A program made the translations under genes and the position numbers. From positions 62,001 to 126,000 of the forward strand of contig JAIVFJ010000171.1 of NCBI GenBank assembly GCA_025765615.1: a stretch of DNA of 64,000 nucleotides. The letters are read 5' to 3'. Each line of letters begins with the position of its first letter. Positions within the stretch are counted from its first letter, which is position 1. The notes under the pieces are model-generated. The model did not search any database and was not told the origin of the DNA. It saw only the letters and a list, made by a program, of their open reading frames with translations. Shown here piece by piece: positions 7,001-30,691 of the stretch. The stretch is from Zopfochytrium polystomum. Taxonomy: Eukaryota > Chytridiomycota > Chytridiomycetes > Chytridiales > Chytridiaceae.

Positions 7001-8160
7001 GATGGGAGAACGAATACAAGTGCCAGCAGATTCCCTCGGGCAGTTTTTTGGCGGCGAGTGTGAGGCGGTGGCAGAGGCAAAAGGTGATGGGTCTCGGCGT
7101 GGGGCTTGCCTGGGACGTTTTTTGGTGGTGAGCAAGGCAAACAATCTAGGGGGCAGCAACACAGTGCCAGCCACAGAAATAATGGCAGACGGGCCCGCTG
7201 CGTCTGGTGCGCAGCCGCCGCTCTCCATGGCGGTTGGAGCCCCAGGCAAGTGGGCATCCGTTCAAAGCAAGGTCCGTTGAAAGGGCGGAGCCAAGTGCAA
7301 ATCATGACAGCGCCATGAGCGACCATGTCTGGTCCACTGCAGCTACGGTCATGGCGGAATCCGTCGCAGCCGCAACCAATCCTGCCTTTGTGGACGCAGT
7401 TAAGGTTTTGGCTTTGCTCCTCTCGTGGGCCATTTGAGTCTCCTTTCGCATTATTTCCTGCTGTCAAGTTTGGCAAGGAAATCGCTTCCATAATTAATAT
7501 ATGTATTTGAAGAATGCACCATCCCGTGACGTCCTCATCCGCCAGCCCACGCAAACACACCCAGCGAGATGGATAATCGTACAAAACCGCCACCCACAGC
7601 TGAATCTCCTGCCGAAACCACCCCTGCAGAAGCCGCTTCACCCAATATTCCCACTGGTTTCCGCAGACCTAACGCAACCCACACGCACCTTTGCAACTAT
7701 TAAAAACGGAGAGCGGATTGGCTGAGATCAAGCAGCGGTTTCCTACGCAGCAGATCTGGCATGCTCCCTGTGGGTTATCGTGTTTGCCCACAAACAGGGG
7801 CGACCACAGTCAAAGGAAGGATTGAGGCCAACAGAATTCTGCGGCCCGCAGTGGCTGTGGAGATGACAGGGAAGGCGGAGCAGCGAGCGACTTTGTGTTG
7901 AGGTGCGATGGCCCCTGCAGTCACTGCTGCTGTCAACAACAACAACGATGGCGAGGCAGTTGTGGCGGACGTGGCGATCAACAATTTGGAAGCAGAGATG
8001 GCTTCATTGATGTCGATCTGGCGGAGGACTCTTCTAGTTGACCTTCGACTGTTCCCTCCTGCACCCCCTCCCACCCCAAACGGCCGTCCGTTTAGTTGAA
8101 TACAATGAATCAATGATATAAGGTTCTGTTGGTTTCGCTGATATACGAGTCCAACCGTTA
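4090..8160. other. GC-rich low-complexity region, no gene supported
   Basis: Trinucleotide-biased DNA (GCN, GAC and CAA-rich) that leaves open frames on both strands at once. None has a recognisable domain, a convincing start or consistent codon structure; the long frames at 4158-4973 (minus), 5416-6261 (plus) and 5798-6556 (plus) overlap and look compositional. A short block at 5190-5350 recurs at 35165-35310. Confidence 0.5.
5190..5350 (+). repeat. Interspersed repeat D, copy 1
   Basis: Shares ordered blocks with 35165-35310: GGCAATCAGTGGTTGATTT, then AAAAGGnGTCnAACAAGC, GCAGCCCCCAG, TGGAGGGGCGAT and TTGATTCAGGTCT. The blocks are separated by similar spacing and small differences. Both copies lie inside GC-rich low-complexity DNA, which suggests that a larger unit was duplicated and has diverged. 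Confidence 0.65.
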
Positions 8161-9975: not shown

Positions 9976-11173
9976 CTCGCTTTCCCGCACTTTCCTTCGC
10001 TTTCCCGTCAATTCTTAATTTTTCCTGTCAATTTTCAATGTGTATTGAGAACGCATGGTTCAAGTCCACCTGGTAGTGCTTCAGGACCTCCTGATCCCAC
10101 TTTGAAATGCTTTTCAGTGCCAGCTTGAAAGCTCTGGGCGACCACCTGACAAACAAGTAAAAATAAATCAACTGTTGGTGGACTGGACAAGAGACAGCAG
10201 ACCTGCTGAAACGAAAAAAGAAGCTTGCATGTGGGTATTTGGCTGTCAGTCTACAGTCATGATTTCCTTTCATTTTCACTTGGTCACCCAAAGTTTTCAG
10301 GCCACCAGTGGATTTGATTGCTTCACGCAGTAGGACTGCAGCTTTCCCACCATTTATTCCACTGTTTATTTTTGTGCAACTTGGATACCTCTCACAGCAG
10401 TAGTGTCATTTTGCTTTCACCACAAAATGAAGTGCATGTTGTTTCTGATTTTTCGTTGTTTTGACTCTTGAGCAGATTTCACTTTCTTCCAGCTCTTTTT
10501 CTTTCTTGTTTTGTAATGATGGTTGGTCCCTTGACATGGCAAGCCTTGCTCTGTTTCAGGTTAGTTGAGGCTATTTGCACCAAAAGAGCTTTGAGGAAAC
10601 GTGCAAACAACTTAATAAACCAAAGTTTTTGGGCTAGAGCTGTAATATCAACACTCCACAATATCTTTCCAAAAATTGCCCTGACTCAATAGCCTTAATG
10701 CTGGAGAAACAATCAGTGAAACAGCTTGTGCATATAAAACTATTTTTGTAAGGGCTTGGGGCTGTCATCCAAGAAGAGCACCAGAATGGAAGATAAATAG
10801 GAAAAGAAAAAATTTGTTTGTGCTGGAAAGGAAAAAGAAGAAAATTAAGGTAGTGCCCAAAACAACTTTACAGATACAGATGACAGCCGTTGTTGGAGGG
10901 TAATGCTCAGTTTGGTGATGCAACAGGAAATTTTGCAAAACCTCTCTGACAGCCAGCAATATTTAAAAATAAAAAAAAAAATAAAAAAAAGGCCTTGCCT
11001 CTGTGTGGTGTGTGCAACCACCATATGGAGAAGGCAGAAGGTCAATGTGTACATGTGGAAAGCATAGACTCTGTTTGTTCTGGAGGCAGGTCTTTGCAGT
11101 AGTTACCACCCCAACCCATCTCCCAGCCCTGCAACATTTTACACAGGAAGCAACATATTAAAGCCTTGTTGGG

Positions 11174-11255
11174 GGGCAGATGGCCAAGTTGGTCTAAGGC
11201 GCCAGATTAGGGCTCTGGTCTCTCCGGAGGCATGGGTTTGAATCCACTCTGCTCA
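11174..11255 (+). pseudogene. tRNA-Leu-like sequence with AGG anticodon loop
   Basis: Resembles the tRNA-Leu at 16645-16727 along its length. The acceptor GGGCAGA/TCTGCTC pairs fully with one G-T, the D arm is tRNA-Leu-like (GGCCAAGTTGGTCTAAGGC) and a long variable arm is present. The anticodon stem CCAGA/TCTGG encloses TTAGGGC, giving AGG (a Pro-type anticodon) where a Leu AAG would need only one base change. One base is missing from the 3' side of the T stem (AATCC-AC instead of AATCCCAC), which breaks it. It is probably a pseudogene. Confidence 0.6.
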
Positions 11256-11616
11256 ATCCTCCCATTATCTCAGCCATCCTCTGTTTGTAGTTTAACCTAT
11301 CCGCTGCAGCGGAGGTGGCTTAAAAGTAACAGAACTGTCACTGCAAACTAAGAAGTTTAAATAGTCAACCAAGCAGGATCAACCCTCTATCCTTGTGTTT
11401 ACTGCACAAAGGACTCAACCATACAGATCCCCCTTCACAGAATGAGCATTTCAAAACTGTACCCTGACCATATTCCAACCGCACACCGGTTGTCAGAGTT
11501 TTCCTTATCTGGCATGAACGAAATTACTAATTAAGGGAAAAAGGCAAATTGGTGAAGCCAACCTCTGGCTTTTTTCCTTCTGCCTGATTAAGGCAGCGAG
11601 CTTGTTCCAAGCAGAG

Positions 11617-11712
11617 GCTCTGTTAACTCAGTTGGTTAGAGTGTAGTGCTAATAAGCCCTCTTGTGGGCTTGAGTGACGCTAAAGTCACAGGTTCGATCC
11701 CTGTACAGAGCA
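11617..11712 (+). tRNA. tRNA-Ile (AAT) with a 22-bp intron
   Basis: The acceptor GCTCTGT pairs perfectly with ACAGAGC and A is the discriminator. The D arm is ACTC..GAGT, the anticodon stem TAGTG/CGCTA, the T arm ACAGG-TTCGATC-CCTGT. The loop CTAATA-A gives anticodon AAT. A 22-base insert at about 11655-11676 follows the base 3' of the anticodon, the canonical eukaryotic tRNA intron position. All arms are intact, so it is likely functional. Confidence 0.9.
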
Positions 11713-12234
11713 CTCTGAGGAACGCATGGACGTGCTTACAGTTTGCATTTTAAGCTAGCTCAATTCCTCAGATCAAAGTGACAGTGGCATTCTGACTTCT
11801 ACAACAGGTTAGTTCTGGTCTGAATGTGAGCCTGCCTTCAAGGACAATCAGTTTGTCTGTCTTTCTGCAATAGCAAAGTCCTGAGACCCAGTACAAGTGC
11901 AGTCATGCCCTAAGCACCAGAACAAAGGCTTGATTTGGCACATTCATCAGCTTTGTCCATGTAACTGTGTTGGAATAAGCTCAGACAAACGCACTCCTCA
12001 AGTCCCCTGTAACAACTTCCCTGAAACCACCATCCCATTGAGTGAAAACAAGCAAGCGTGAAGGAAAAACCATCCAGTGGCAAGGTAATAACTGTGGCTT
12101 GCTGCTCTGCGCTTTGTTCCATTGCAGTAGTCTTGCAGCAGAGACACTCTTCTTAACTGGGCGAAATGGGCTCCTCCTTGGCCTGACTGGGTTCCTCCCC
12201 TTTCCTCCTGCACCTCAACTCAAGGAGAAGAAAC

Positions 12235-12302
12235 GGGGCTTGCTGGCGATTGAACCCAGGACTCCACCCAAAGGAGGAATCATACCACTAGACCACAAAC
12301 CC
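12235..12302 (-). tRNA. tRNA-Pro (TGG)-like, shortened
   Basis: The minus strand starts GGGTTTG, which pairs with CAAGCCC at the 3' end, with C as discriminator. The D arm GTCTAGTGGTATGATTC is Pro-like and the loop TTTGGGT gives TGG. The anticodon stem has only four good pairs, the T stem has a G-G mismatch and the whole is 68 nt, about four shorter than usual. The 5' half is repeated at about 12393-12427. It is perhaps a decayed gene. Confidence 0.5.
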
Positions 12303-12505
12303 AATTATGATCTTTGGTGGAATATGCACCGGTGCACACACGTCATAATCAATAGAAAGAAGAAGAAAATTTGTCTTTGATTCCAACAGTCTCCTCTGGA
12401 ATCATACCACTGGACCACAATCCCAAGCATAGTCCCTGTTGGAATATGCCCCTGCATGCATGATAATCGATAAAAACTTGCCTTTGATTCCATCCATCTC
12501 CTCTG
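12279..12505. repeat. Tandem duplication containing the 5' half of the tRNA-Pro
   Basis: Two adjacent, diverged units share GGAATCATACCACT.GACCACAA, then GGAATATGC, TGATAATC.ATA and CTTTGATTCCA.C..TCTCCTCT. The second unit starts near 12391 and is about 20-25 bp shorter. Each unit begins with the first part of the minus-strand tRNA-Pro and continues into the same flank, so a segment spanning the gene's 5' end was duplicated without its 3' half. Confidence 0.65.
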
Positions 12506-14165
12506 TCACCATTGCCACCCCCACTGTCACAGACACACACTCCACACCCCCACCTTCACTAGCCCCAATTATCATTGATTTATATAGTTGTGCATTACAT
12601 TTTCAATGTTCTTCACAGATTTGCCTCAGGTGCACCAACTTCCACCAGACTGTAACATACAATCTCTGGATTAACTACACACAGAACAACAACACCAATC
12701 CGCTGAGAGCATTTTGCATTTTTCATTATCAGAGAGAAATGACATGAACTTGAAATGAACTTGATCTCAACTTGAACAAAACCTGAATTTGGACTTTGAC
12801 CTCAGAGATTGGCAACAGGGGATTAAATTTGCAGCAAGTCCCCCATCAACACATAGAAAAAAAAGCAAAAAACAATCCTTTTCAATTTGACATAAAGTAT
12901 CTTACAAATTGATCAAAAGTCCAGTTCAATTTGAAAAATGCAATGTTGTCAGGGTGGTTTGCTGTAATACATCTGCTTTGCGTGTCTATGAGTGTCCAAC
13001 ATCGTTGGGTTTTTTCCTTTGTATGTATGTACCGTTGTCACCCTTCTACTGCACAGTACAGTTGCTAAGAGTCAGGATTTGCAACCTGAAACCTGCAACT
13101 GACAGACTCCTCAGCACAGAGGTGTCAGAGCTGTGACACTGTGGTGAGCAGAGTGGGATTCGAACCCTAATTCCGACATTGGCTCGCCCATTCTTGTGTT
13201 TTTTCCTTCTTTTTTCGTTATTTATCTTCCGTGCCACCCGCGGAAAACTGGCAGTCAAAGGTTCAGAGTACTAATACAAAAATAAATTCTTAGAGATGGC
13301 ATTCATTGAAGGTTGAGGTTACATTTTTAAAGATAGTTGAGAATAATGAGGCTGCTTCTCCAAGGGCAGCTATTTATAGGGAGAGTGCCATTAGGAAAGA
13401 GGAAAAAGGAAGGCGAAAGAAAAGAAGAATGAAAAATTACTGACAAGGAAGAAAAGATAAGTGATTAGAAGCATTTACATGATTATGTACACCTATTATC
13501 AATAGGGGCTCCCAGGCTGCATAGACCTGTTTTTAACCAAGGAGCCAGAAAGCTCTATTTCATTATCACAAAAGATGATGCTTCTAATTGCACTAAGAAT
13601 TGGCAAACCTTGTTCTAGGACATATTGGAAAAAAAAATTATGAAAATTAGAGAAACAACCGAAATCGATTCCTCTTTCTGATGGGGTCATATTTTCATGT
13701 AAAACTATAAAATGTGCTGTACTGAATCAGCGTAGAGTGAGAGCTGAAGAACCTAAAGTATGACTGACAATTTGTGGGAGATACTCAAAAATCTCATACT
13801 GAGATGCGGGGGGGGTTGTATAGCAGGAAAAAAGATTTGATGGGCAAACGAGAAAATCCAAATTTGCTTGATTTCAATGTCCTGCACTGTATCTGCTGCT
13901 TTTTTGTGCAGATGCTGCTGTTCTTGGTGTGAAAGTGGGTTTTTGTTTGTGTGCTTGCTGGTTATTTTGGTGTGGCTGCAGCCAAGTGGCCCTTGTCACT
14001 CCTTTTTTGAAATTCTTAGCAGTTTTCTAGGATGTGCATCTTCCAGTCGGGGAGACTGTTTGGAAGACAGGCTTTGTGAGCACATCACCCAACCGCTCCT
14101 CTTGCCAGAATGGTCAGCCAGAGTGGCAGTGACACCAATAACTCCAATGCATTCTAACAACACTG

Positions 14166-14237
14166 TGGAGGCACAGGGGATCGAACCCTGGGCATCTCGC
14201 ATGCGAAGCGAGCTATCTACCACTGATAAGTACCCCC
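14166..14237 (-). tRNA. tRNA-Ala (CGC)
   Basis: The minus strand folds completely in 72 nt: acceptor GGGGGTA/TGCCTCC with two wobble pairs and A discriminator, D stem TATC/GATA, anticodon stem CTCGC/GCGAG with loop TTCGCAT (anticodon CGC), five-base variable loop, and T arm CAGGG-TTCGATC-CCCTG. The D arm differs from the usual Ala form (GTGTAGCTCAG) but still pairs. Confidence 0.85.
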
Positions 14238-14620
14238 AATAGCGGTGCAGGGATCCCCTGGTACTAACAACAAAACTTGCTGACATTCCATCTAGTCTCA
14301 CCTGGCAGGAGCTGGGTGCGTCCTATTCGTAACCATTACGCAGATAAAGAGGCTGAGTGCCAGAACCGCACCTCTTGGCAAAATGGGGGGCAAGGGGAGA
14401 GGGGAAGGTGAGAAATGACTTGAAAATGTTCTGCACACAAATTGCTATGGAAAACTCCCTTTTCAATGAAGTGCAAAGAGTGTGGCTGTTGCACAGTTTC
14501 AAACTTCATACAGAATTGCTTGGCAAATTTCCTGGAACAGGCACAGCAGGACACACAGTTTCCATAAGAAGTCAGTTTGTGCTGAGGAATTGCATGCTGT
14601 CTTTCCACACAAACACACAT

Positions 14621-14622
<2 letters not shown>

Positions 14623-14659
<37 letters not shown>
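14623..14659. repeat. (CA)n microsatellite
   Basis: About 18 uninterrupted CA units. A second, shorter CA tract lies at about 35789-35815. Confidence 0.95.
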
Positions 14660-14660
<1 letters not shown>

Positions 14661-14906
14661 GCAAGAGCCTCCAAATGTTGCACGGGCAAGGAATCACAAG
14701 TGGCAGGACAACAAAGTTTTTGTCAGGTGGAAAAACCCCTCAACAGCTAGGAATTGTCATGTACAAAGACTGCACATGAAAAGTCAAACCACCCAATCAA
14801 GAAGTGGGTTTCAACAACCCTTAAAGTGGATCATTGGTATCAGTATCTTCAACTGTTAGGAACTCTAGAGACCTGATGGTAAGTATTTGTGCCCATAGAG
14901 CAGCAT

Positions 14907-14978
14907 TCCCAGTTAGTATAGTGGCAAGTTTCACCCCCTGTCACGGGGTAGACCCAGGTTCAATTCCCGGACTGTGAG
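14907..14978 (+). tRNA. tRNA-Asp (GTC), somewhat degenerate
   Basis: The 72-nt cloverleaf starts TCCCAGTTAGTATAGTGG, a tRNA-Asp-like 5' half. The anticodon stem ACCCC/GGGGT encloses CTGTCAC, anticodon GTC. The acceptor has one C-T mismatch (TCCCAGT/ACTGTGA) and the T stem one A-C mismatch (CCAGG/CCCGG); the T loop is TTCAATT. Two stem mismatches make it a borderline gene or young pseudogene. Confidence 0.65.
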
Positions 14979-16388
14979 GAGCATCACTTTCAAAGTGGGC
15001 TTTTTGACAGCAGTCAGTCTTATGAGTTGCCTAGATTCTCATCTGGTGGGGCAGGTGCCAAGCGCAACCACCTCCAGATGCAGTGGGGTGAGTTCAGCCT
15101 CAAGCACTGTGCTGGTACAGTAGGCGCATGAGCTTCAAACATATTCCACAACGTGCCAGTGCTGGAACAGGACGATTGCGTATGCAGGGGCTATTAAAAG
15201 CTGCCAAACAACCACAAAGCACAAGCAGGCACAAAGTGAAGAGGTTGGTGCTGAGCATACTCCCCTTCCCAATTAGAGGACGGTACACCCTTTCTTGTCC
15301 ACACCATAGCCTTTTTTGGCTCCTTTCTGTTTTTCAAACAATTGTTTTCTTTTATCGAAACAAAAATTAGAAAAAGGCAAATCTCGTGCTGCAAAAGGGA
15401 CCTAACCCTAGCGCCACAAAGACAGCTTTTTTGACGTGATCAAAAACATCCAATCAACCTTTCGCTGCTGGCACTACCAAAAAACACCTCCCAATGAACA
15501 GCTCTTCTTGTGCTAGCACCTGATCAACACTGCTGGAGTTGGAGATTGTGATCACAATGTGAGTGAGGACGCCTGGGCTGTTGACTTCCAGGCTTTTAAC
15601 AATCAGTTTGAGATTTTCTCCTCCATTTACAACTTTAGACAGCACAAATCACCCAAGTTGATTATACAGGGTCGCAGTCTGAGTGGCACTTGGCTTTATC
15701 GCCCTCCCCCACCGACACCCACAAAAGTGCCCACCAATGGCTGTATGGGATTGGAACTTTTGAAGGGATGGTCAGACTTTCTGCTTGCCCTTGAGCACCT
15801 CAGACTACGTGCGTCCATCCCATCCACAACAAAATTCAACAAATACTGCCACTAATCTCACCATTGCAACTTTCTCAACACTTCCTGTCGTTGTTGCGGC
15901 TGTGATCAGGTTGGACCTTGGAGGTTAATGTTTTGTTTCTGCATTTTCTTTTTTTTTTTAATTTGCGTATTTTTTTAAAATTTTTTTGGATTGGATCAAA
16001 GTTTGAATTTTCATCCAGCTGGTGGCAGACGCCACTTTCCAATCAAAACCTCTGCCCTAAACAGCCTGAGCCTTCAATGCCAACATACTTGGCTTCACTG
16101 AAACAGCTTGTCCATAAGCCATTCATCTCACCTCATGCTGGCAGCCCAGCCCACACCAAAGAAGAGCATCTCTGTCACTAATGACTGGAACCTAATTGAG
16201 AAGATGAAGGTGGTTGACGTTGATTGCTGGCCGTGGCATGGCGCATTGGGGGTGGCCTGACTCTACTGGCAGTCACCTATTCCTCATGGTTCTGCTAGCT
16301 TCCCTTGATCCCATCAAAACCTGCGCTTGGTAACAAACTTGTGTTTCCACCACAACAAGTCTGCAGCAAAGTACCGCACAAAGCTGAT

Positions 16389-16460
16389 TGGTACATGGTG
16401 GAATCGAACCACCGTTTCCTCGGCCACAACGAGGCGTACTAGCCACTATACGAATGTAGC
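16389..16460 (-). tRNA. tRNA-His (GTG)
   Basis: The minus strand reads GCTACAT T C GTAT AGTGGCTAGTAC, anticodon stem CCTCG/CGAGG with loop TTGTGGC (anticodon GTG), T arm GGTGG-TTCGATT-CCACC and 3' acceptor ATGTACC plus A. One C-C mismatch sits at the second acceptor pair. The other arms are intact. Confidence 0.85.
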
Positions 16461-16644
16461 ATTGGGGTTTCTCACTTGTGTTTGGAAAATACAAAATGCA
16501 TATGTCTGCTGATCTGAGAGCAGCAGAGCACAGCAGCTGCAGGGGTTTGCTCAGAACTCCAGTTGATGGATTTGCACACTCGCTGGCAGGTGACCACTGC
16601 CTAGCGGTCCAGACGGGGGCCCTTGCCACACATAATATGGCTGT

Positions 16645-16727
16645 GGTCAGGTGGCCGAGCTGGTCTAAGGCGCCGCATTCAAGTTGCGGTCTCTCACGAG
16701 GCGTGGGTTCGAATCCCACTCTGACCA
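16645..16727 (+). tRNA. tRNA-Leu (CAA)
   Basis: The 83-nt type II tRNA has acceptor GGTCAGG/TCTGACC, Leu D arm GGCCGAGCTGGTCTAAGGC, anticodon stem CCGCA/TGCGG with loop TTCAAGT (anticodon CAA), a long variable arm, and a perfect T arm GTGGG-TTCGAAT-CCCAC. There is no intron, although CAA Leu genes in many eukaryotes have one. It is intact and likely functional. Confidence 0.93.
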
Positions 16728-17149
16728 TTTTCCCCTGCAGTTGGGAGATCCCCTGCATAGGAAACTTTTGTGGCACTAATTGCAGAAAGCCAGGGTGGCA
16801 GAATCCCCAGAATCCACAAGGCACCACCCGAATTTGTCAGTCCTGTTGCCTGGAGCAAGCCATGGTGGGTAAATGGCCATGGCTTGTGGCAAACTGTGGT
16901 GGGTGGCTTGCTGTGGCAGTGGGCGTTCTGGTGGCCAAGACCATCCAGGTTCCACGGCAATCCAGCATTCCATGCTTATTAAAGAGCAAGCAGTCACAGC
17001 AGCCTAATCACCCACTCCTGCCAAAAGAAACACCATATTGTCCAATGTTTTTCTTTTTCAGCTGTTAGGTGGAGCTGACTGGTTAGCAGCAAGAGGCACA
17101 AGACGGACCCAAACCTATTGTGACTGTCAGTTATCGTTCTCACGATGGC

Positions 17150-17410
17150 CATGGGGAGAGCAAGCCACCGCCAGTGCAGACCTGGGAGCTGGCTTGCGCT
17201 GTTGACAAACTACGCAATACGCCACACTTCTTTCCTGTGCAATTGTGTGCAACACACTCGCACTGGTCAAATTCCATTTGAATATTACCAAGGCCAAAAA
17301 ACCCAACCTACGCCACCTTGGAATTTTGGCTGCCTCATTGTCACACTCAACAATGAGTACACAGAACCTGCAAACTCAAGGAAGAGGAGATTTAGAGAGC
17401 ACAGTCTCAC
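17150..17410 (+). mobile_element. Copia integrase fragment
   Basis: One frame reads LLTNYAIRHTSF...HTRTGQIPFEYYQG...PWNFGCLIVTLNNEY. This is the Copia integrase block 'A...A.Y..N...TPFE...G..P....FGC'. The second half nearly matches 150-245, so both relics come from the same or a close family. Flanking frames are closed. Confidence 0.6.
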
Positions 17411-17916
17411 AGTTACCTCCATTGCCATTAGGGGTCCTGAATTTTGCCACAGGTGCATGGTCGTTCTCCAATAATTGGAGGCTGCTGGAAGTAACTAAGG
17501 ATTGAAATTGATGTCCTGATACCCAAGAAATATTGCATAGATCACATCACAAAAAAAATCCTTATGTGAAAAAACTGCAGAGACTCTCCCAGGTGACAAT
17601 AGCAATACTCTGATATTTATTGGCATCAAGTCTACTTTCATTTGTTCTGGAGGAAATCAAATCTACAACCTGATATCAATATAGATAGCCAGGTAAATAG
17701 CCAGGTAAATAGCCACTGGACCAAGCCATACAACACTGGGTCCAAATGTCACTATATTCCATTGATTTAGATCCTTAGAAATGACTGCAATACAACCAGC
17801 AAACAAAACCTGTGGTTTGCCAGTTGCTGGCTGCCAGTGTAAGGATCTGCATTGCGGCAGTGGCGTTTGGTGCCTGCTAGGGTTGTAGATGCAACCCAAA
17901 AGCTTTGGGTGGCCTA

Positions 17917-18690
17917 TGACATTTCTAATCTCATGGGTCAGTAGTTCGCTGGGGTTTTACAAGCGCTCCCTGAGATAATTATTGACAATTACCAACATAG
18001 TAGGCCCACCACCATTAAAATTCTAATTTTAAACTTTCCCATAATTTATCCTGCATAACAGCAAACCTTTGTCCTGTCCTCTGCATCATAAAAGAGCTCC
18101 TTGTGTTCTTTATGCTGACTGGGCCACAGCATAGAGGACACACCCCTTTTCTTTCCTGTTTACTTTTTGTTGCTTTGGTTGATGTCGCTCCCTTTTACCA
18201 TTCTTCAATCCCCTTTCTGTGCAATGACATGAGGCCTCCCAGAGCTTCAAATTTCATCCATCGTCAATTTTGAGGAAAACTCTTCAAATTTGACAGAGGT
18301 GTGGCTGAATGTGTGGCTGTTGCCTTACAAATTGTTCTTTTCTTTCCTTTTCTCCTTTTTTAATTCTTTTGTGTTGTTTCATTTTCTTGCTTTCCTTCTT
18401 TCTTTCTTATTGTCTTTTCTTTTTCTCCTTGACTGCTATAAACACTGCCACCCCTTCCACTATCCCTTTCTCTTTATCTATGTTCTATCTTACTTTCCTC
18501 AATAAAACTCTCTCTCTCAGGGCCATCATATTGTTCTTTGTTTGTTGAGGTGGTTCTCCCTGGCCAGTGCGTTGTTGACCAAGGAGGGAGAAGATGATTC
18601 CTCTTAGGCCAGAGCCACCAGATCAAGCTGAAGAGGCAAGAACAACATTCCCCTTGGGCCAGTGTGTGAAGACCAAGCCTTGTGTGATGG
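17917..18690 (+). repeat. LTR-B copy 2 (solo or truncated)
   Basis: Starts TGACATTTCTAATCTCATG, a diverged version of the LTR-B opening at 3019. It then follows LTR-B in order: CATAAAAGAGCTCCTTGTG, ACACACCCCTTTT, a pyrimidine-rich body, CTATAAACAC, CTCAATAAAAC, and the repeated GGCCAGTG/GACCAAG motif. No element body was found on either side, so it is best read as an old solo LTR. The 3' limit is approximate. Confidence 0.65.
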
Positions 18691-19615
18691 CTGGTTCTGG
18701 GACAGTACTGGGACAAAAACAGGAAAAGCCAGATTTTATCTAGGCCAGGTTTCAGGTGGTATCTCAAGGATTCCTCAACAGCTTGAAACCTTACCTGTGT
18801 GTACCCAAGCCTGGACTTGGCACAGACACAAACTTCTTGGTATGTTTCACCTCTCGATAGCAGCCTCAATGTACAACCAAATAACAGCTTTGTTGTGTAG
18901 CTGCTTGGATTGCACTTGAACTCCCTCTGCCGCCACCATCAGCGGCTCATGGTCCATCCTGAAGTAAGGGCTCAGCGGTTTGACCAAACTGGTGCTTTAT
19001 CTGACTGGTTTAAGGCCAGCACAGTGCATAAAACAATGTAAAATTTCACCCAGTGGCATATATTGCTTGAAAGTTTCATGTGCTTTGCTTTCACTGGAAT
19101 ATTTCAGGGCAGAACAATGCAAGTCAGAACTCTGGTTAAGCAAACCGCCGAGTCTTATCCTGAAGCAACTATGGGTATCAGCAAGACACTGTGCCAGACG
19201 CTGTGCCTGTGCAAGCACCATGGAGGTGCTTGCCCATACAGCTACACTTAAGCCCACACACATAGCTGCACCTGCGCCTACATGTACTCCCTCGAAGGAT
19301 CTGTCAACTTGATCAAGTTCTGTGACTTGACCCACCTTGTTGACAGAGGCCACAAATGTTTGACTCTGATGACGAGAGCTTGGGCTGGCATGCCTGTGCT
19401 TCTGTTATGGTTGACGCTACTTTGGGCCCAATGGCATCCACACCTACCGCCAGTGCTGGGTCCAGCACCTGGGAAAAACAACTCACAGAATGCCTGGCTC
19501 TTTGGACCATTCAGGTCCCCATTGGTTCCCTGGCTCCACAAACACTGCTATGGCAATCATGCATGGGACCAGCCAGCACTTTGGGGACCGTTCATGCCTG
19601 AGACAGTGGGATATT

Positions 19616-19686
19616 GGGGGATTCTGGGGATTTAACCCAGGACCTCCTGCACCAAAGCAGAAATCATACCACTAGACTAAATCCCC
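19616..19686 (-). tRNA. tRNA-Pro (TGG)-like with a six-base anticodon loop
   Basis: The minus strand has a perfect acceptor GGGGATT/AATCCCC with C discriminator, Pro-type D arm AGTCTAGTGGTATGATT and a perfect T stem CTGGG/CCCAG with loop TTAAATC. The anticodon stem CTGC/GCAG encloses only TTTGGT, one base short. TGG is still readable. The missing loop base suggests a recent pseudogene or a one-base sequence error. Confidence 0.6.
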
Positions 19687-20047
19687 TGCCAGTGTTTTCT
19701 GCAAAACAGAGAGTTGACATCACGCCACCACTGACATTTTTGTCGGACCGTATGGCTCAAGTCGATACAGCATTGGTCAGCTTGTGCCCCAGGGTGCCAA
19801 AGGTCTCACTGGCACCCCCTTTAACTGTGCTGTCAGGCAGACTTGGACTTGTCATCCCTTCAGTGAAACTTAGCTGCACTCAAACTTTTGCAGCAAGTCT
19901 CAGAAGTGGGCAAGGTCAGCTTGCACACCTGCAAGATTGTTATTCAGACGTCGAACCCAGTTTGGCCCTGACTCCCAAACCCCAGAGGCTCACAAAATCT
20001 GAAAACAAATAAATGAAAATTAAAATAAAGTGAAGTAACACCCCTTT

Positions 20048-20129
20048 CGTCCTGCACAGGATTCGAACCTGCGCTCCCAAAGGGAAATGCCTTAGCAGGG
20101 CACCGCGTTAACCACTCTGCCAACAGGAC
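20048..20129 (-). tRNA. tRNA-Ser (GCT)
   Basis: The minus-strand 82-nt type II tRNA has acceptor GTCCTGT/GCAGGAC with G discriminator, D arm GGCAGAGTGGTTAACGC, anticodon stem GTGCC/GGCAT with loop CTGCTAA (anticodon GCT), variable arm CCC..GGG, and T arm GCAGG-TTCGAAT-CCTGT. All arms are supported, with a few wobble pairs. Confidence 0.9.
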
Positions 20130-20354
20130 CCTCCACAAGTCCCTTTAGGCAAATAAGCGTGGTGCAACTGGGCCTACCTGAAGCCTTTTTTCATACACTA
20201 CCCAACAGCAAGACAGCAAGATCCTCTGCAACTGCAGTATTCAAGCATGAGCTTGGCTGGAAGTGTGCTTACTTAAAGCTGCTTTGACTTGGCGCTTGCA
20301 AAACCCTGGTGCTATTGCTACAAGTGAAGACATCCAAGTATCTCCAGCAGTTCA

Positions 20355-20427
20355 CGAGCATAGCAGGACTCGAACCTGCAATCTTTCGATCCGAAGTCGA
20401 ACGCGGTAACCATTTCGCCATATGCCC
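20355..20427 (-). tRNA. tRNA-Arg (TCG)
   Basis: The minus strand has acceptor GGGCATA/TATGCTC with G discriminator, D arm GGCGAAATGGTTACC, anticodon stem TTCGA/TCGAA with loop CTTCGGA (anticodon TCG), and T arm GCAGG-TTCGAGT-CCTGC. It is complete at 73 nt. Confidence 0.9.
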
Positions 20428-20685
20428 ACCCCAAACCTCTAAAATCAACTTTTGCCCCCTGCTTGTTTCCTGTTTTTTTTTTTTTTTGGTTGGTGTGTTC
20501 TGTCTTTTCATTTCACTCCCTCCCCCCTTACTGTTCTCCAGGTGGCTAGTGTTCAAGAGTGTCAGGAACAGGGCAGGACAGGACAAGGCAGACAAGGGAC
20601 TGAGAGGAGTGATGATTGTATTGGAAACAATAATTCACTTGAGGGATGGGACAGGTCCCCCATCCCCCTTTTATACCTTTTGAGA

Positions 20686-20860
20686 GTGTTCCTTGTCAAG
20701 ACTCAAAGAAAGTTCCAGAAAGAGCAATTAGTAATACAATGATACCAATGATACCAATGACAACAAGACAAGTCAGGAAAGCAAAGAAGGTTCCAGAAGG
20801 TTCCACAAGGTTCCATGAAGGAATGTTCTAGAAGGTTCCAGAAGGTTCCAGAGGGTGATT
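20686..20860. repeat. Minisatellite of about 10 bp (AGAAGGTTCC) resembling arrayed heat-shock elements
   Basis: Units of GAAGGTTCCA repeat imperfectly, densest at 20786-20855. They produce the alternating nGAAnnTTCn pentamers of a heat-shock factor binding site several times (for example AAGAAGGTTCCAGAAGGTTC). A similar GAAAGTTCCAGAA occurs at 20706. CCAATGATA repeats lie between the two parts. Whether this is regulatory or just a satellite cannot be told from sequence. Confidence 0.7.
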
Positions 20861-21573
20861 CATAACAAAGAGGACCAATAACAAGGGGATTAACAGCATG
20901 AAGTTGCAACAATCAGGATCCTGCCAATCAAACTGGACTCGATCAAGAGACTTTGCCCACCGATGCTGTCGTAACTTGTGCTTGCTGTCAGTTTGGCATT
21001 TAGATAGCTAAAGGAAGGATAATGGTCAGTTGGAATTGGCAGGCCAAGTATCCCACCCCAGCAACCCAAGTGATTGCATTGCAAGTTTGCACCTTTTTTT
21101 GCACACGGAGAAACTTTTTTAATCAATGTTGCAAAAGTTGCACATGCTGCACAGCGCAACTTTGCATGGGGTAAAGTGCCTGTCTTGGTCAGGCTTCCAC
21201 AGTCCAACCCCCCACATCATGCTGGATTCGCAAAACCTGACTTAAGTTTTTTGTTTATCTCTTTTTTTTTCTGCTCAGTCTGTCAGCCAGGAACCAGACA
21301 TTAGAATAAAGAAATTTGCAATCTTTCAGCTGAACAAGCCTAAAGCAAACACTCACAGAAAGTTGAAGCTTTTTTCCAGCTTGTTCAAACAAATGCAAAT
21401 TGCTGGTTTTGGCAAAGAACCCATTGGCTTGTTGGTTTGGCCACTTGGACCATCAAATGACACCAGTCAGCCGATGAAATTTGACAAGGTCCAACACACA
21501 CAAACACTGTTCAACTGCGCTGCACCACAGGTGGTGCAGCACAAGTCATCAGGAGTTGCGCTCCCTTCCTGCA

Positions 21574-21648
21574 TGGTTTCACCGAGGTTCGAAACTCAGG
21601 ACCTCCTGTGTGTGAGACAGATGTGATAACCAACTACACCATGAAACC
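21574..21648 (-). tRNA. tRNA-Val (CAC)
   Basis: The minus strand has a perfect acceptor GGTTTCA/TGAAACC with A discriminator, D arm GGTGTAGTTGGTTATCAC, anticodon stem TCTGT/ACAGG with loop CTCACAC (anticodon CAC), and T stem CTGAG/CTCGG. The T loop is eight bases (TTTCGAAC), one more than normal, so function is likely but not certain. Confidence 0.8.
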
Positions 21649-22334
21649 ACATGACTGGACTTGTCAAAAATATGACAGCAATATGCACTTGCTTGCCAGG
21701 AATCATTTGGAAGTTTATTGAAAAAATGAATGAAATGTAGGCTGGAGTTGGCCTGGGTTGAGCCACCATGATGCATGCAGCCACTCAGCTGCTGCCACAC
21801 CACAGTTCAGTCAACCAAACCATCTCCTTCTTAAAGCAGAAAGCGGTATTGTAGGCAGTTCCTGCTTCTAATAGCAGCAACAATTCAACAAAGGAACAGC
21901 CAGCTGCTCAGACAGTTAAGTTTTAAAATATTGTGTTTTTGTCTCCCTGATTTTTTGATCTGTGTTTTGACTTTCTGACAAACCAGCATTTCATGCAGAC
22001 GGACTGTGGGTTGGGTGTGCTGATTGGGTTTTTTTTCTTTTTTTTTTCTGTGTTTTTGTTTACAATTTGTCTGATATCTTGTGGCAAGGGCAACGACCTT
22101 TGTACAAACATTTGGAGCAAAACATTAGGCTGCAAAAACTGTGTCCACGGTCCAACATCCAGTTACATCCTTCATGGCTGACTCAGGCTGTTTGCGTTTG
22201 TAGAGATTTTGTTGCTCTTGGTTGGTGCAAGAGACAACCCCCCAGGCCAGTGGCAGTAGCCTGTAGGTAAACAAAGGAAGGTGGTGGACTCCAGGCTGTA
22301 CCTTTTCCTCCTGAATAGGGTCTGCCACAGACTG

Positions 22335-22580
22335 AACCGGGTCAAATCTGAAATAAATTTGAGTTTGATTTGAATTCGAATCAGACTTGAATCAAATGAA
22401 TTCTCCAGTATAGAGTGATTTGAATTCGATTTGATTCAGGTTTTATAAGTAAAAAATCGAAATTCCATTTGATTTGGCGCAATTTGAGTGCAAAAACAGC
22501 CATTTGTCAGATTCAAATGTCTGGGAAATACATTTTTTTCTTGTCATTTGGGTCTGGAAAGCAGAATCAAATCAAATCAA
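22335..22580. repeat. Degenerate AT-rich repeat of TTTGAATTCGAATC type
   Basis: Imperfect repeats of GATTTGAATTCGA, TGAATCAAATGAATTC and AAATCAAATCAAA on both strands give many overlapping short palindromes around GAATTC and TTCGAA. There is no coding signal. Confidence 0.6.
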
Positions 22581-22957
22581 ACCCAAATGGGGATCTGGTC
22601 TGTGGCAGACAGTACTTGTAAAGTGCTTTGCAGCTGTCCATCACTGCTAGAAATCATTGTCAGCTCTGCTGCTGGCAAGCTTGTGGCATCAGGGAGATCA
22701 TTGCCCTCATTGCAGCATATGATGGCAAAATCAGAAAGAAAAGACCACACCTGGCGCTTATGGCCCTGCTTTCGCAAGTGATGGTTTTGGTTTCCTGAAA
22801 CTTTGTCATGAGCATCTTCAGGTGGTGTTTTTCCCCTTGTCTGTCTGGGGATCCAACTTCCATGCTCTGCAGGAGACTTGCACAATGGAATGCCGACCAA
22901 CACCCCAGGGAGTCAGCAGCCAGGCAACAACAGTCCACACAAATCTACAGCCCTTAT

Positions 22958-23048
22958 CGCTACCAGGAGGACTTGAACCACCAACCTTGCAGTGTGCTGC
23001 TGACCATGTCTAACAGACGCACGCGCTAACCAGTTGCGCCACGGCAGC
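22958..23048 (-). tRNA. tRNA-Asn (GTT) with a 17-bp intron
   Basis: The minus strand has acceptor GCTGCCG/TGGTAGC (two G-T pairs), D arm GGCGCAACTGGTTAGCGC, and an anticodon loop CTGTTA followed by a 17-base insert before the 3' side of the stem, the standard intron position. The anticodon is GTT. The stem has one mismatch next to the loop. The T arm GGTGG-TTCAAGT-CCTCC has one T-T mismatch. Confidence 0.75.
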
Positions 23049-23528
23049 ATATTACAGTTTGAAGATGGTTGCCAATTGATCCAATTCTTTTCACACTTTC
23101 CCATTCAAGGAAGCGTTCAAAATGTGTGGCAGAGATTGCATATGACCATAGGATTGTTGGGTTTTGTGTTGACTCTCCATTCTCAAAATGGCATGCCACT
23201 TTCCCCGACCCTTCCACCTTCTTGTGACGCAGCCTCCACTCTCGACGTCACCTTCAACACTGCAACTTCAACATTAAGGAAAGCAGCAGTTTCCCGGATT
23301 CCAATGTCTGGGAAAGGCTGAAGTCCTGCTGGTCATTGAGTCTGGAAAGTTAAACTAAGCCTGAATCTTCATTATAGCATTATTAGCACCCTGGCAGTCT
23401 CTAATTTCCATCAGAAACTGTTCAAGCAGTCCCAAACTGCCTGGCATGGGCATTTAGGTAGGCTCTTGTGCAAAAATTTTTTGGTCAAACACTGTTGCTT
23501 GGTCCATCTGCCCTTTGCCAATGACGTC

Positions 23529-25545
23529 TGTTGAGATTCGACCCACAGGGTACACGACGCCCGTTACTGATGATCCCTTTGAGAACTCCATCCAATCACA
23601 TTGGATGGGGTGCTTGAAGGGCTCAGTAGATTCAATACTTGAATGGGGCGCTCGGAAGGGCTAATCTGTTCTCAATAAAAAGAGATAGGCAAAGGCGGCT
23701 GTTGTTCTAGCTTTGTTCATCCTATACCGGTAGGAACAATGCAATTAGAACATGCACAAAAACGCTCAAACTACGCACTCTGCACATGTAACACAGCACA
23801 GCAAGCATGCAGAAGCAGTGTACCACTGCCCAATGCTCCGGAATTCCGCTCTCTGCACCGGAATTCCGCACTCTGCATCGGAATTCCGCTTCCTGATCTG
23901 GAATTCCTCTCTCTGCACCGGAATTCCGCTTCCTGATCTGGAATTCCAGCTTTCCTGCTGTGCTGTGCAATCTGAGCAATGCAACAGGCATTTAGGAATC
24001 AGGGATTGCACCAATCACTGCATTTCTAAAAGTGAGATAAAAACTGAGCTCACCAGAGATTGCACCAATCATTGGATTTCTAAAAACAAGGAAAAAAAGC
24101 GGCTTGTTTCCCAAACAAGCTTCCTGATTTGGAAACAACCAAACCAATTTACAAGCAACTGTTTCTCAAACAAGCTGTAAATTGGTTCCTGGTGGTACTC
24201 AGCCCAGACAAAGTGCTCAGCCCAAGGTGGTACTCAGCCCTGGCTGGTACTTAGCCCTGGGTGGTGCTCAGCCCAGGCTGGTACTCAGCCCTGGCTGGTA
24301 TTCAGCCCTGAGTGATGCCCAGCACTGGGTGGTACTCAGCCCTGAATGGGTACTTAGCCCAGGCTGGGGATTGGTGCTCAGCCTGTTTTATCTCATTTCT
24401 GTGGCCTGCTTTGTGCAGCCCACTGCTCCCTCTGTTTTCTGATGGCTCCAACCTGCAGGAGTATAAAAGCAGCAACCTCTCACAGAGATCAAACAAGGAA
24501 AAAAAAAACCCCCTCCTTGCTGCTTTGACAGAATCCAGTGCAAAACAAGCCAATCTCTCTTCCTCCATTTGCTCTCTCTTCCATCTCTGCCCACTGAGAT
24601 AAAACAGGCTGAGCACCAATCCCCAGCCTGGGCTAAGTACCCATTCAGGGCTGAGTACCACCCAGTGCTGGGCATCACTCAGGGCTGAATACCAGCCAGG
24701 GCTGAGTACCAGCCTGGGCTGAGCACCACCCAGGGCTAAGTACCAGCCAGGGCTGAGTACCACCTTGGGCTGAGCACTTTGTCTGGGCTGAGTACCACCA
24801 GGAACCAATTTACAGCTTGTTTGAGAAACAGTTGCTTGTAAATTGGTTTGGTTGTTTCCAAATCAGGAAGCTTGTTTGGGAAACAAGCCGCTTTTTTTCC
24901 TTGTTTTTAGAAATCCAATGATTGGTGCAATCTCTGGTGAGCTCAGTTTTTATCTCACTTTTAGAAATGCAGTGATTGGTGCAATCCCTGATTCCTAAAT
25001 GCCTGTTGCATTGCTCAGATTGCACAGCACAGCAGGAAAGCTGGAATTCCAGATCAGGAAGCGGAATTCCGGTGCAGAGAGCGGAATTCCGATGCAGAGA
25101 GCTGAATTCCGGAGCATTGGGCAGTGGTACACTGCTTCTGCATGCTTGCTGTGCTGTGTTACATGTGCAGAGTGCGTGGTTTGAGCGTTTTTGTGCATGT
25201 TCTAATTGCATTGTTCCTACCGGTAGGATGAACAAAGCTAGAACAACAGCCGCCTTTGCCTATCTCTTTTTATTGAGAACAGATTAGCCCTTCCAAGCGC
25301 CCCATTCAAGTATTGAATCTACTGAGCCCTTCAAACACCCCATCCAATGTGATTGGATGGAGTTCTCAAAGGGATCATCAGTAACGGGCGTCGTGTACCC
25401 CGTGGGTCGAATCTCAACACACTCCTCTCTCCTCTCTCCATCCTCTCACTCCTCTCCCTTTTCCATCATCACTGCTCTCTCTCTCTCTCTCTCTCTTCAT
25501 CCCCACACACACCAAGTCCCTCCAGTCCTGGGTGGGATTTCATCA
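23529..25545 (+). repeat. Solo LTR-A carrying an internal inverted LTR segment
   Basis: Starts TGTTGAGATTCGACC and ends GGGATTTCATCA, flanked on both sides by ACGTC (23524-23528 and 25546-25550), a 5-bp target duplication. Compared with the intact copies at 28159 and 45590, it follows the LTR to ...CTGCCCACT at 24595, then runs through the reverse complement of the first ~867 bp of an LTR (24595-25419, ending ATCTCAACA), and resumes at CACTCCTCTCTCC to the normal end. The arms 23529-24395 and 24595-25419 are inverted copies about a 199-bp spacer. They differ in the number of GGAATTCC units and at CCTATACCGG versus CCTACCGG. A TATA box (TATAAAAG) lies at 24462. Confidence 0.9.
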
Positions 25546-26585
25546 ACGTCAGCTGGCGTCGTACAAGCCCTTCAACCACAACTGCATCAGCAAGTGTCAT
25601 AGCAACACTTGCCGCTGTTGGCTGTTTGTTTGCTGTTTGCACACCTGTGTCAACAGCCAGATGGCTGCGCTCACCAATGTTGTCGAGGGCAAAAAGGCAT
25701 GGTCATCCAGCAGATGGACCTATGATTTTGCATCTTGCTCAGTACTGTGATTGACTTTTGATTTACGTTTCTGGATTCTCAGATATTTGTGTTGCTTAGG
25801 CAGATTGGCCAATACGCTCACTAAAACTATTGCGATACTTTTTGGCATACTTTCTGCTTTGGACTCTCAGCGGCAATAGAAAGGGCAACAACATTGGGGT
25901 AGGCATGATCCTTGTGGAGCACTGGAGGTGGAGGTGATTGCGAGGCAGCTGCTGCATGTGTTGGTGCAGGGTTGGCAAGCAATGAAGGCATTGGGGTCTC
26001 AGTGGCCACCACAGAGCCCCAGCACATGACCACAGCAAAAAAGTGTTGGTGTACAGTGACGGCACTGGAGTAGTTAACTGAGGTAAAGCAATTTGGGCGG
26101 GCCAGCTAGCGATGCAGGCTTTCTGCTTTGGACACCAGGGACACCCTGGGACCCAATTCATTTGGTAGCGTAACAGCAGTACCAGCTACGTCTGTGACTG
26201 GAGATCCTGTGGCAGTCACGTGACTTATGGGAGACAAGTAGTGTGGGAAACAAAAAATAAAAAATAGAAAACAAACCACCACTCTTGTCAACCCTTGCAA
26301 ACAACAAAGCTGCGGGTCAAGTGCCAACAAAAGGAGAATTGCTGCACAGAGTGCAAAGAACGCAAAACACCAAACTTCCTTCCATCCCAGACCAGATTGC
26401 AGATAGCTTTTGGCCCCAACGTTTGACTGATTCTGTGCAAGAAAATCTGGTCAACTTTGTTCAAATTCGACCCCAATTTGCTGTGGCCTCGCCTCAGGTG
26501 AGCCGAACCAGTAACAGTGCACCAGTCTCTGGCAAAAGGCAAACTGCCATCTTCATATACGAGCTCATTGTGCTAGTTGTTATCT

Positions 26586-26642
26586 GGCTGCGTAGTGTAG
26601 GGGTTATCACATCAGATTCTGATTCTGGGGACCCCCAGTTCT
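26586..26642 (+). pseudogene. tRNA-Gln (CTG) relic, 3' end lost
   Basis: GGCTGCGTAGTGTAGGGGTT resembles a tRNA-Gln 5' half. The anticodon stem TCAGA/TCTGG encloses TTCTGAT, anticodon CTG. The T arm begins CCCCAGTTC but the T stem and acceptor cannot be completed, so the gene is truncated. Confidence 0.5.
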
Positions 26643-26659
26643 TTTCCACATTCAATTAG

Positions 26660-27865
26660 TGGCACTGCCCAATAGCGGGCGGCGGGAAAAAGGGAAAATC
26701 AATTGACGAGAAAATGCCAGAAAACAGATTCCACTAATTGGGCCCCCCACCCCTGTCATGTCAAACCACACCCACCAGAGCATGGTTCTCGCTCAACCTT
26801 CCACCACCGCTTTCTCGTCCCGCAGTCTCAGCCCACTCGTGCCGCTGGCTCGCCGTTTTGCCTCGCCCTCGTCTGGCACAACGCCGCGTCCTCGCGCATA
26901 CACCAGCACCGCGGCGATGGCGGCGCTCTCGCTTGTCACACGCCGACCACCGAATGGTCCGATCATCTTCCTCTCCTGCGTCTGGTCTGTCCGCACTGTC
27001 CTCCACGCTCACCCTTCACGCGAGACCAGCACCTTCTTTGCAACAACTGAAACAAAGATGAGCGCGACACCATCCTTCTCTCAGCGATCAACTCAAGCTC
27101 TGGCAGGTGTCGAGGCAGGCTGTGCAATGGCGAATACCATCCTGAATCTGTTTCAGCACAATTAACTTCTTCCTCTTCGCCGTCGACCCCTAATCAGATC
27201 CGTCGACAAGGACAACCTCCACCACTACCTCCGTCGATTGCAACCATCACGCACATTCTGCTTAAATCAAGTTTCCTCCTGTCACATCATGCGCTCGACA
27301 CACCTCACCCTCGCCCAAGTGGGTGATGCGCATTGTCCTGCCGCAGCCATCCTTTGAGCCGCACCACCTACCCTCGTGTTGGTTCCCAATTGCCCAAAGA
27401 TTGGTTTGCCACTGTCATTGCCAGGGCATGCAATAAATGCTTCACTGCATCGGAAGGGGTTTGCAGCAAGACTCATAGCATCGCACCATGTCACCAGCAC
27501 CATTGATGCCGTTCTCCGTGTATTGGTGATGGTGACTCTCTGTCGCCCTCAGCGGCTTTTGGAGCGGAATTGCGATGTGAATGCTGCGGCATGATGGGGT
27601 ACAACGCTTCGAGGAAATCAAGCTGCAGAATTGCTGTCTTTGCTTTCTTCTCATTTTTAACTCCATCACTCCGGGTTATCACAGCCATAATGTTGCAGGA
27701 AGATTACCATTGTACGCGCTGTCATGCTCTTCTTTAGCGTGACACTGCCTGTAATGGCTTCTTCTTCACACGCACAATTGTTTCAATTATTTCTATTTCC
27801 TTGCTGTTTTGTTTGACTTCACCTAAGTTGACAAAGGATATCCTTCTAGGTTGACGTCCCACACT
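26660..27865. other. No gene supported
   Basis: A frame at 26758-27165 (plus) is rich in Ser, Thr, Pro and Arg and could be read as a mitochondrial-type leader, but the same DNA is open in the other frames too and no domain is visible. The remainder holds no recognised feature. Confidence 0.4.
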
Positions 27866-28158: not shown

Positions 28159-29379
28159 TGTTGAGATTCGACCCACGGGGTACACTACGTCCGTTACTGA
28201 TGATCCCTTTTGAGAACTCCATCCAATCACATTGGATGGGGTGCTTGAAGGGCTCAGTAGATTCAATACTTGAATGGGGCGCTCGGAAGGGCTAATCTGT
28301 TCTCAATAAAAAGAGATAGGCAAAGGCGGCTGTTGTTCTAGCTTTGTTCATCCTACCGGTAGGAACAATGCAATTAGAACATGCACAAAAACGCGCAAAC
28401 TACGCACTCTGCACATGTAACACAGCACAGCAAGCATGCAGAAGCAGTGTACCACTGCCCCAGGCTCCGGAATTCCGCTCTCTGCACCGGAATTCCGCCC
28501 TTTTGCATCGGAATTCCGCTTCCTGATCTGGAATTCCTCTCTCTGCACCGGAATTCCGCTTCCTGATCTGGAATTCCAGCTTTCCTGCTGTGCTGTGCAA
28601 TCTGAGCAATGCAACAGGCATTTAGGAATCAGGGATTGCACCAATCACTGCATTTCTAAAAATGAGATAAAAACTGAGCTCACCAGAGATTGCACCAATC
28701 ATTGGATTTCTAAAAACAAGGAAAAAAGCGGCTTGTTTCCCAAACAAGCTTCCTGATTTGGAAACAACCAAACCAATTTACAAGCAACTGTTTCTCAAAC
28801 AAGCTGTAAATTGGTTCCTGGTGGTACTCAGCCCAGACAAAGTGCTCAGCCCAAGGTGGTACTCAGCCCTGGCTGGTCCTTAGCCCTAGGTGGTGCACAG
28901 CCCAGGCTGGTACTCAGCCCTGGGTGGTGCTCAGCCCAGGCTGGTACTTAGCCCTGGCTGGTGCTCAGCCCTGAGTGATGCCCAGCCCTGGGTGGTACTC
29001 AGCCCTGAATGGGTACTTAGCCCAGGCTGGGGGTTGGTGCTCAGCCTGTTTTATCTCATTTCTGTGGCCTGCTCTGTGCAGCCCACTTCTCCCTCTGTTT
29101 TCTGATGGCTCCAACCTGCAGGAGTATAAAAGCAGCAACCTCTCACAGAGATCAAACAAGGAATCCAACCCCCTCCTTGCTGCTTTGACAGAATCCAGTG
29201 CAAAACAAGCCACTCTCTCTTCCTCCATTTGCTCTCTCTTCCATCTCTGCCCACTCACTCCTCTCTCCTCTCTACATCCTCTCACTCCTCTCCCTTTTCC
29301 ATCATCACTGCTCTCTCTCTCTCTCTCTCTTCATCCCCACACACACCAAGTCCCTCCAGTCCTGGGTGGGATTTCATCA
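28159..29379 (+). repeat. LTR-A (5' LTR of a gag-bearing element)
   Basis: 1221 bp, TGTTGAGATTC...GGGATTTCATCA, collinear with the copies at 23529 and 45590. It contains GGAATTCC-centred tandem units (28470-28575), a perfect 12-bp inverted repeat AACCAATTTACA/TGTAAATTGGTT with a 22-nt loop (28771-28816), a tandem array of ~18-bp TGGTACTCAGCCCTGGC units (28855-29040), a TATA box (TATAAAAG, 29125) and a CT-rich tail. The bases before (CACTG) and after (CAAAG) do not match, consistent with a 5' LTR whose partner LTR is missing. Confidence 0.9.
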
Positions 29380-29591
29380 CAAAGCTACCTACAAGCCGTC
29401 GGCCACACTCGTACGCTCGAACAGGGCCCTGCTGCTCTTACAAGAAAAGGGTTTCTGACTCTAAACAAGACCAACCTGTCTGTGAGCACCGGCTCACCAG
29501 CTACTTTAAGGCAACAAAGGGCTCTTGGCTCTCTACAAGAAAGGGCTACCGCTCTAAACAAGTCCACTGGTCCACCAAGCCGCTACCTAGC

Positions 29592-30691
29592 ATGTCTTCT
29601 TCGACCCCCAAGGCTGTCCGCTTCTCTTCTTACGGCTACCAGGCTTGGGAACTGCATGTGGAAGAAGTCATCAAGCCGGTCATGGCATACAATCTTGTTG
29701 CCAGCTTCCTCAAGCCTGATTACTTCGGTACGTTCAACGAGCACTGCACCAAGGTCGGCATCGGCGCTGCTCCTCCCAGTATTGGTTCTCCCCCTGAATC
29801 CTCTGCAACGGCGGAGGCCAAGGCTGCGTACAGTGAGATGTACCGTCTGCACCACGCTGCCCTTGACAAGTACCACACTGGTATACGCCAAGAACACAAG
29901 ACCTACAGGGAGCTTGAGGCCCAACACGACAAGGCGGTTGCTACCCTCGACTCCTGCTCGCGCATCGAGGATGTGCGCTCCATGAATGCAGCAAACATCA
30001 CCAACTGCGCTGATCGGTACAAGTGGCTCAATGACAAGTACGCCCTGCAGGACCACACTGGTTCACAGCAGGACAAGTGGCTTGCGACTTACAGTCGTTT
30101 GGCAAAACCCAGAGACTCTGGTCCGGCAGTCCAGGAGTGGTACACCACTCTGACCACACTGGTCACGGATTGGCCAAAGCATTTCAAATGTACTGCCACC
30201 ACTTGCAGGGGTGTGACAAACATCCTGCGTCTGCCATCATCCACAAAGCAAGGGAAACGCTGCCTGGACATGAAATCTTCTCTGGCGTTCGTCAAAATCT
30301 TCTCAAGGGGCTGTCAGGCTACGCCAACACCAGCGACCTCGTCAAGGAGTTGACAAACTGCCACACGCTGTACCAGCAAAGCAAAGAGAAGAACAGCAGA
30401 CACTCTGCTCACCACGGCACTTCTGAGATGGAAACAGCTGCTTCAGCAAAGGCCTCAGTGGCAACCAAGAAGCGCAAGATCGGTGAGGCACTCAACGGCA
30501 AGCCTACTTGTGACCTTCATGGAATCTGGGTCTCACACTCTCGCGAGGAATGCCTCAAGTTCCCTCACGGGAAGTCAGAGCCAGCTCGCCCTGCAAAGAA
30601 GGCCAAGGGCAAGCAGCCTGCACACGCCAAAGAAGCCAAGGCCACGCCAGCTGATTCCAAGAAAGCTACTGAGACAGCCATCACTCCGTAA
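29592..30691 (+). pseudogene. Copia-like Gag of the LTR-A element (frameshifted)
   Basis: Begins MSSSTPKAVRFSSYGYQAW 213 bp after the LTR-A end. The first frame (to about 30.2 kb) contains W..W-type helices and ALDKYHTGIRQEHKTYRELE; the second frame (from about 30.15 kb to the stop at 30691) contains KARETLPGHEIFSGVRQNLL and a C-terminal CDLHGIWVSHSREEC motif, a C-x2-H...H-x4-C zinc knuckle-like pattern, followed by a Lys/Ala-rich basic tail. One frameshift separates them. Capsid proteins of this sort package element RNA. No protease, integrase, RT or 3' LTR follows; sequence of another gene begins within ten bases of the stop codon. The element is thus a 5' LTR-gag remnant or was joined to this site by deletion. 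Confidence 0.65.

Follow-up and report, generated by a model that had tools for sequence, protein, structure and literature searches.

How a solo long terminal repeat (LTR) can come to hold an inverted partial copy of itself, and whether the resulting palindrome silences its own family, are the questions raised by a locus of the LTR-A family in the chytrid Zopfochytrium polystomum. The locus lies in the window, the whole stretch of 64 000 nucleotides analysed here, which is C171:62001-126000 (contig JAIVFJ010000171.1) of the host assembly that we searched (80.2 Mb, 761 contigs).

The palindrome is composed of LTR positions 1-1067, followed by reversed LTR positions 867-1 and by positions 1068-1174 (Table 1). 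Its inverted arms of 867 and 825 nt differ by six substitutions at 825 aligned sites, by 40 bp in the length of an array of 20-bp tandem units and by a TA dinucleotide, and 683 of the 847 21-mers of arm 1 are also present in arm 2, which is far beyond chance. The 199-nt spacer is not added sequence; it represents positions 868-1066 of the outer copy, because the stretch from the left terminus to the left inner junction aligns without gaps over 1067 bp to the LTR at 45590-46763. The target duplication ACGTC was found on both sides, so that the LTR proper ends at 25545. The termini are TGTTGAG...TTTCATCA (TG..CA type) and the internal region is absent, as in a solo LTR. The near-identical inverted arms, the 199-nt spacer and the single ACGTC duplication bounding the whole, all given in the preliminary description, were thus recovered, and the palindrome is confirmed as real in the assembled sequence.

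Table 1. Positions of the parts of the LTR-A palindrome and its flanks in the window
Feature	Position	Strand	Remark
Left target-site duplication ACGTC of the outer solo LTR	23524..23528	.	
Outer LTR-A, positions 1-1067 (arm 1 = 23529-24395, remainder spacer)	23529..24595	+	gap-free, 99.4% to the 45590 LTR
20-bp GGAATTCC array of arm 1, order AGCDEDF	about 23865..23960	+	limits approximate
TATAAAAG, LTR position 934, in spacer	24462..24469	+	sole exact one on both strands of 23529-25545
Arm 2, inverted LTR-A 867 to 1, array ATGDF, without TA insertion	24595..25419	-	right end is an exact LTR terminus
Truncated junction, LTR 1067/867	24595..24596	.	single match in the assembly, <=3 mismatches
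CACTC (LTR 1068-1072), inferred remaining copy of the inner 5-bp target	25420..25424	.	same target at C57/C159
Remainder of outer LTR, positions 1068-1174	25420..25545	+	
Right target-site duplication ACGTC	25546..25550	.	

As annotated here, LTR-A is a Ty1/copia-type element. In a related copy (locus L055), two LTRs (1017-2222 and 7859-9064) enclose one open frame of 1888 amino acids, which was searched as three pieces; the middle piece matched SH3_retrovirus and Pol_BBD and the last matched RVT_2 (E 1.9e-57), the first piece gave no match over the cut-off, and an integrase core (rve) was detected in none of the pieces searched. Two other LTR-A copies are present in the window. The one at 28159-30680 comprises a 5' LTR and the first part of the element, and ends abruptly at 30680. 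The other, at 45590-46763, is flanked on its left (43693-45587 region) by minus-strand LTR-A internal sequence and on its right by a copia-like RNase H reading (motif recognized by eye), and shows no visible target duplication. Its internal left flank and the absent duplication rule out a plain solo LTR that had entered one copia gene and whose target duplication had slipped; ectopic recombination possibly accounts for its state. ARAGORN, run with bacterial settings, called 12 tRNA genes at 11173-26670 and none elsewhere in the window, two of the 12 being of ambiguous identity; the tRNA-Asn call at 22957-23049 has the outer LTR about 480 bp upstream. Elsewhere in the assembly, LTR-A copies recur every ~4.46 kb (150763, 155224 and 159687) in loci L057 and L058 (C4:149500-162500), perhaps as a tandem array, and a 418-bp repeat adjoining an LTR in L057 has an identical counterpart in L045.

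The origin of arm 2 was examined by comparing positions 1-867 of 55 distinct LTR copies, namely the two arms, the two other copies in the window and 51 copies from fetched loci. In the substitution tree both arms fall in an unresolved fan, and among the 55 copies arm 2 stands at the same distance, six substitutions, from arm 1, the 45590 copy and L032. The 20-bp array, which could be decoded in 50 of the 55 rows (the other five were left out of the array comparison), separates the arms. The order AGCDEDF occurs in arm 1 and also in L031, in the 45590 copy and in two copies of L060. Arm 2 has ATGDF, where T stands for a B unit altered by one change; the ABGDF array of L064 and L065 is the order of arm 2 but for one base, and no single deletion cuts B-G-D-F out of the G-C-D-E-D-F of arm 1. 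The TA at LTR positions 195-196 occurs in the 45590 copy as well as in arm 1 and is missing from arm 2 and the 52 other rows. The exact 32-base pattern containing it matches the assembly at two places, in the outer LTR and at 45590, although exact-pattern searches of this kind miss copies with another change nearby. These two LTRs, which alone share the 2-bp insertion, lie 22 kb apart. Because array order and TA both differ from those of arm 1, arm 2 is most simply read as a separate family member from another LTR-A sublineage. Tandem-array haplotypes can thus tell a nested copy from an in-place copy where substitutions cannot.

One base links the arms. LTR base 28 is G in both, T in the 45590 copy, and T in 51 and C in one of the other 52 rows, and the exact 33-base context of this G matches both arms and nothing else in the assembly. 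It hints at gene conversion between the arms or at a parallel change; the differences between the arms at LTR bases 19 and 85 would limit any converted tract to less than about 65 bp. The shared G is likewise expected if arm 2 was copied from arm 1.

The two inner junctions are of different kinds. At the right one (CAACA/CACTC) an exact LTR terminus is joined to LTR positions 1068-1072, as in an integrase-type end. The left one, which joins positions 1067 and 867, has neither an LTR terminus nor a left CACTC: CCCACT remains to the left of the inner copy and the full left CACTC is absent, with the right CACTC present. In most fetched copies (overlapping loci counted separately) the LTR stretch at this 1068-1072 target reads CCCACTCACTCC. 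The preliminary description had suggested that a mobilized rearranged form would reveal itself by the same junctions at other places. When the left and right junction patterns were searched through the 80-Mb assembly with up to three mismatches, each gave one match, the window itself, and there is thus no sign that the rearranged LTR has spread.

Taken together, these features lead us to propose, with a probability of about 0.8, that a solo LTR-A was hit by a reversed LTR-A of another sublineage, and that the far side of the incoming copy was then deleted. The recipient would have been the solo LTR-A with its ACGTC duplication, into which a second LTR-A would have inserted in reverse orientation at recipient positions 1068-1072 (CACTC). 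A later deletion would have taken the left target copy together with positions 868-1174 of the inner LTR (312 bp by the coordinates of the 45590 copy, or a longer stretch if the incoming copy was a full element), and the product would be LTR[1-1067]/reversed LTR[867-1]/LTR[1068-1174]. We infer the second integration, the deletion and the order of events from this arrangement; the second integration would have made an inner 5-bp target duplication, of which the left copy is not intact. The preliminary description took the outer ACGTC as evidence on the origin of the palindrome. However, this duplication is fully explained by the integration of the outer LTR itself and is uninformative on the inner arm, and a target duplication around a palindrome is no proof of integration as a unit. 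The locus would then be an ordinary nested insertion with truncation, and a well-dated example of an LTR family building long palindromes by self-insertion.

Other nests in the assembly bear on this reading. LTR ends at the CACTC target were searched with up to one mismatch and, besides the right junction in the window, a left junction was found in C57 and a right junction in C159. In C57, gag-like LTR-A sequence is followed by CAAGG, LTR positions 1-1072, a second LTR and then 5'-LTR-inner sequence; in C159, 3'-LTR-inner sequence precedes a complete LTR, after which come CACTC, the tail of the LTR, CAAGG and a continuation of the gag region of C57. The two look like the two sides of one direct-orientation nest. 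With the junction in the window, this nest indicates that the same CACTC target has been used at least twice, apparently in opposite orientations. The chance that any pair of six nests shares a target among about 1170 positions is ~1.3% by hand arithmetic on a small, unplanned sample, the six being C20/C89 (counted as one), C122, C183, C52, C57/C159 and C171. The halves in C57 (L063/L072/L073) and C159 (L071) sit mid-contig in different contigs, which may reflect translocation or rearrangement through the repeat, or misassembly.

An LTR adjoining a reversed LTR piece was found in C20, C89, C122, C183 and the window among 40 loci scored of 593 candidates, and in C52 a CTTTG-bounded solo LTR encloses a reversed LTR together with 418 bp that belong to another repeat. 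In L041 (C20:202300-206700) and L042 (C89:254200-258600) two LTR-A elements lie tail to tail, with a complete 3' LTR abutting a reversed LTR that is truncated at 1023. These two loci differ by 13 mismatches and 32 gap openings in 4383 columns, and both of their LTR pairs are placed as sisters in the tree. This near-identity and the sister pairs rule out independent insertions at one site; the two loci are a single nest that occurs in two copies, either through segmental duplication or as haplotigs. The nest in C122 (L043) cuts its LTR at 870, and the closeness of this position to the end of arm 2 at 867 is probably due to chance.

Neither of the two origins offered in the preliminary description, integration of a rearranged LTR as a unit and inversion in place, fits the data best, since arm 2 has the markers of another sublineage and an integrase-type end lies inside the outer LTR. 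A composite made by cDNA-into-cDNA integration in the particle or by template switching, and then integrated with ACGTC, would agree with the single target duplication around the whole, with the exact LTR terminus at the inner end and with a base 28 G confined to the arms, and two co-packaged RNAs could be of different haplotype. Such a history is nevertheless unlikely, as each junction occurs once in the assembly, the solo state of the LTR and the truncation of the inner end would take extra steps, and other LTR-A nests arise without it. We regard an inversion or inverted duplication in place, with arm 1 as the template of arm 2, as highly improbable: the arms are indeed highly identical and have the G at base 28 in common, but their array order and TA differ, the array of each matches other loci, the right junction coincides exactly with an LTR terminus, and the array would have had to change repeatedly and the TA to be lost. 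The explanation to which we give the least credence is an assembly artefact, through collapsed repeats or a fold-back read. An assembly of 761 contigs in which LTR-A abounds is open to such errors, but a fold-back read would give identical arms, and those observed here differ by haplotype markers.

Whatever its origin, the palindrome could act as a silencer if read-through hairpin RNA were diced into siRNAs against LTR-A. The RNA of 23529-25419, folded as native sequence alone, forms 820 arm-to-arm pairs (-1763 kcal/mol). The host has domains of the Argonaute and Dicer types: Piwi domains exceed the cut-off in five matches at about four loci, three loci have two RNase III domains each and a further locus has a single one, which makes a silencing machinery of the usual kind plausible. 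However, TATAAAAG, a TATA box that presumably marks the LTR promoter and is kept in 81 of 83 matches of the fetched loci (overlapping loci counted separately), occurs in exact form within the palindrome only between the arms; it points into arm 2, which is cut before its own copy. Our best guess is that LTR RNA, if this box is active, would start between the arms and cross arm 2 alone, giving an antisense U3 RNA predicted to be complementary to the 3' end of LTR-A mRNA. The position of the box argues against a hairpin from the LTR's own promoter, and hairpin RNA would need read-through from an outside promoter. The locus is, moreover, one among many LTR-A copies (593 candidates). An active silencer is therefore very unlikely, and a silencing role of the palindrome appears unlikely on present evidence. 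Equally doubtful is a broader scheme, in which reverse nesting at a recurrent target would let the LTR promoter read an inverted U3, antisense or hairpin RNA would act in trans against LTR-A, and gene conversion would keep the arms homogeneous, so that the family would have made its own brake. If RNA from the locus does act on LTR-A, a natural hairpin or antisense regulator would have arisen from one nested insertion.

Autointegration products of retroelement cDNA join an LTR terminus to an internal site of the same family. The right inner junction resembles them in this respect, but our two arms belong to separate sublineages and neither junction recurs at any other place in the assembly. Among the titles and abstracts surveyed for solo-LTR hairpins, autointegration-inverted LTRs, nested inverted solo LTRs and long hairpin RNAs, no matching case was recognized.

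In 12 plant genomes, LTR retrotransposons are outlined as often nesting in their own family, with the LTRs as the least-hit part (PMC6911290). By that yardstick nesting in LTRs, as proposed here, is mildly unusual, and the plant pattern, as outlined there, counts against a nested insertion at our locus. The 'autoinsertion' sketched in the same work likewise places a young element in an older family copy; the element ends at an exact LTR terminus and is flanked by a short target duplication (the inner duplication being putative in our case). In contrast, the inner copy here is truncated, reversed and inside an LTR, and its 5-bp target recurs in a second nest of the same genome. In Mu killer of maize, as summarized in PMC3440606, silencing is genetically proven and a flanking promoter has been proposed. 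Our palindrome differs from that summary in that its arms are LTR sequence alone and the locus is known from its sequence alone, but like Mu killer it is an inverted, partly deleted transposon duplication that could in principle give rise to a long hairpin RNA.
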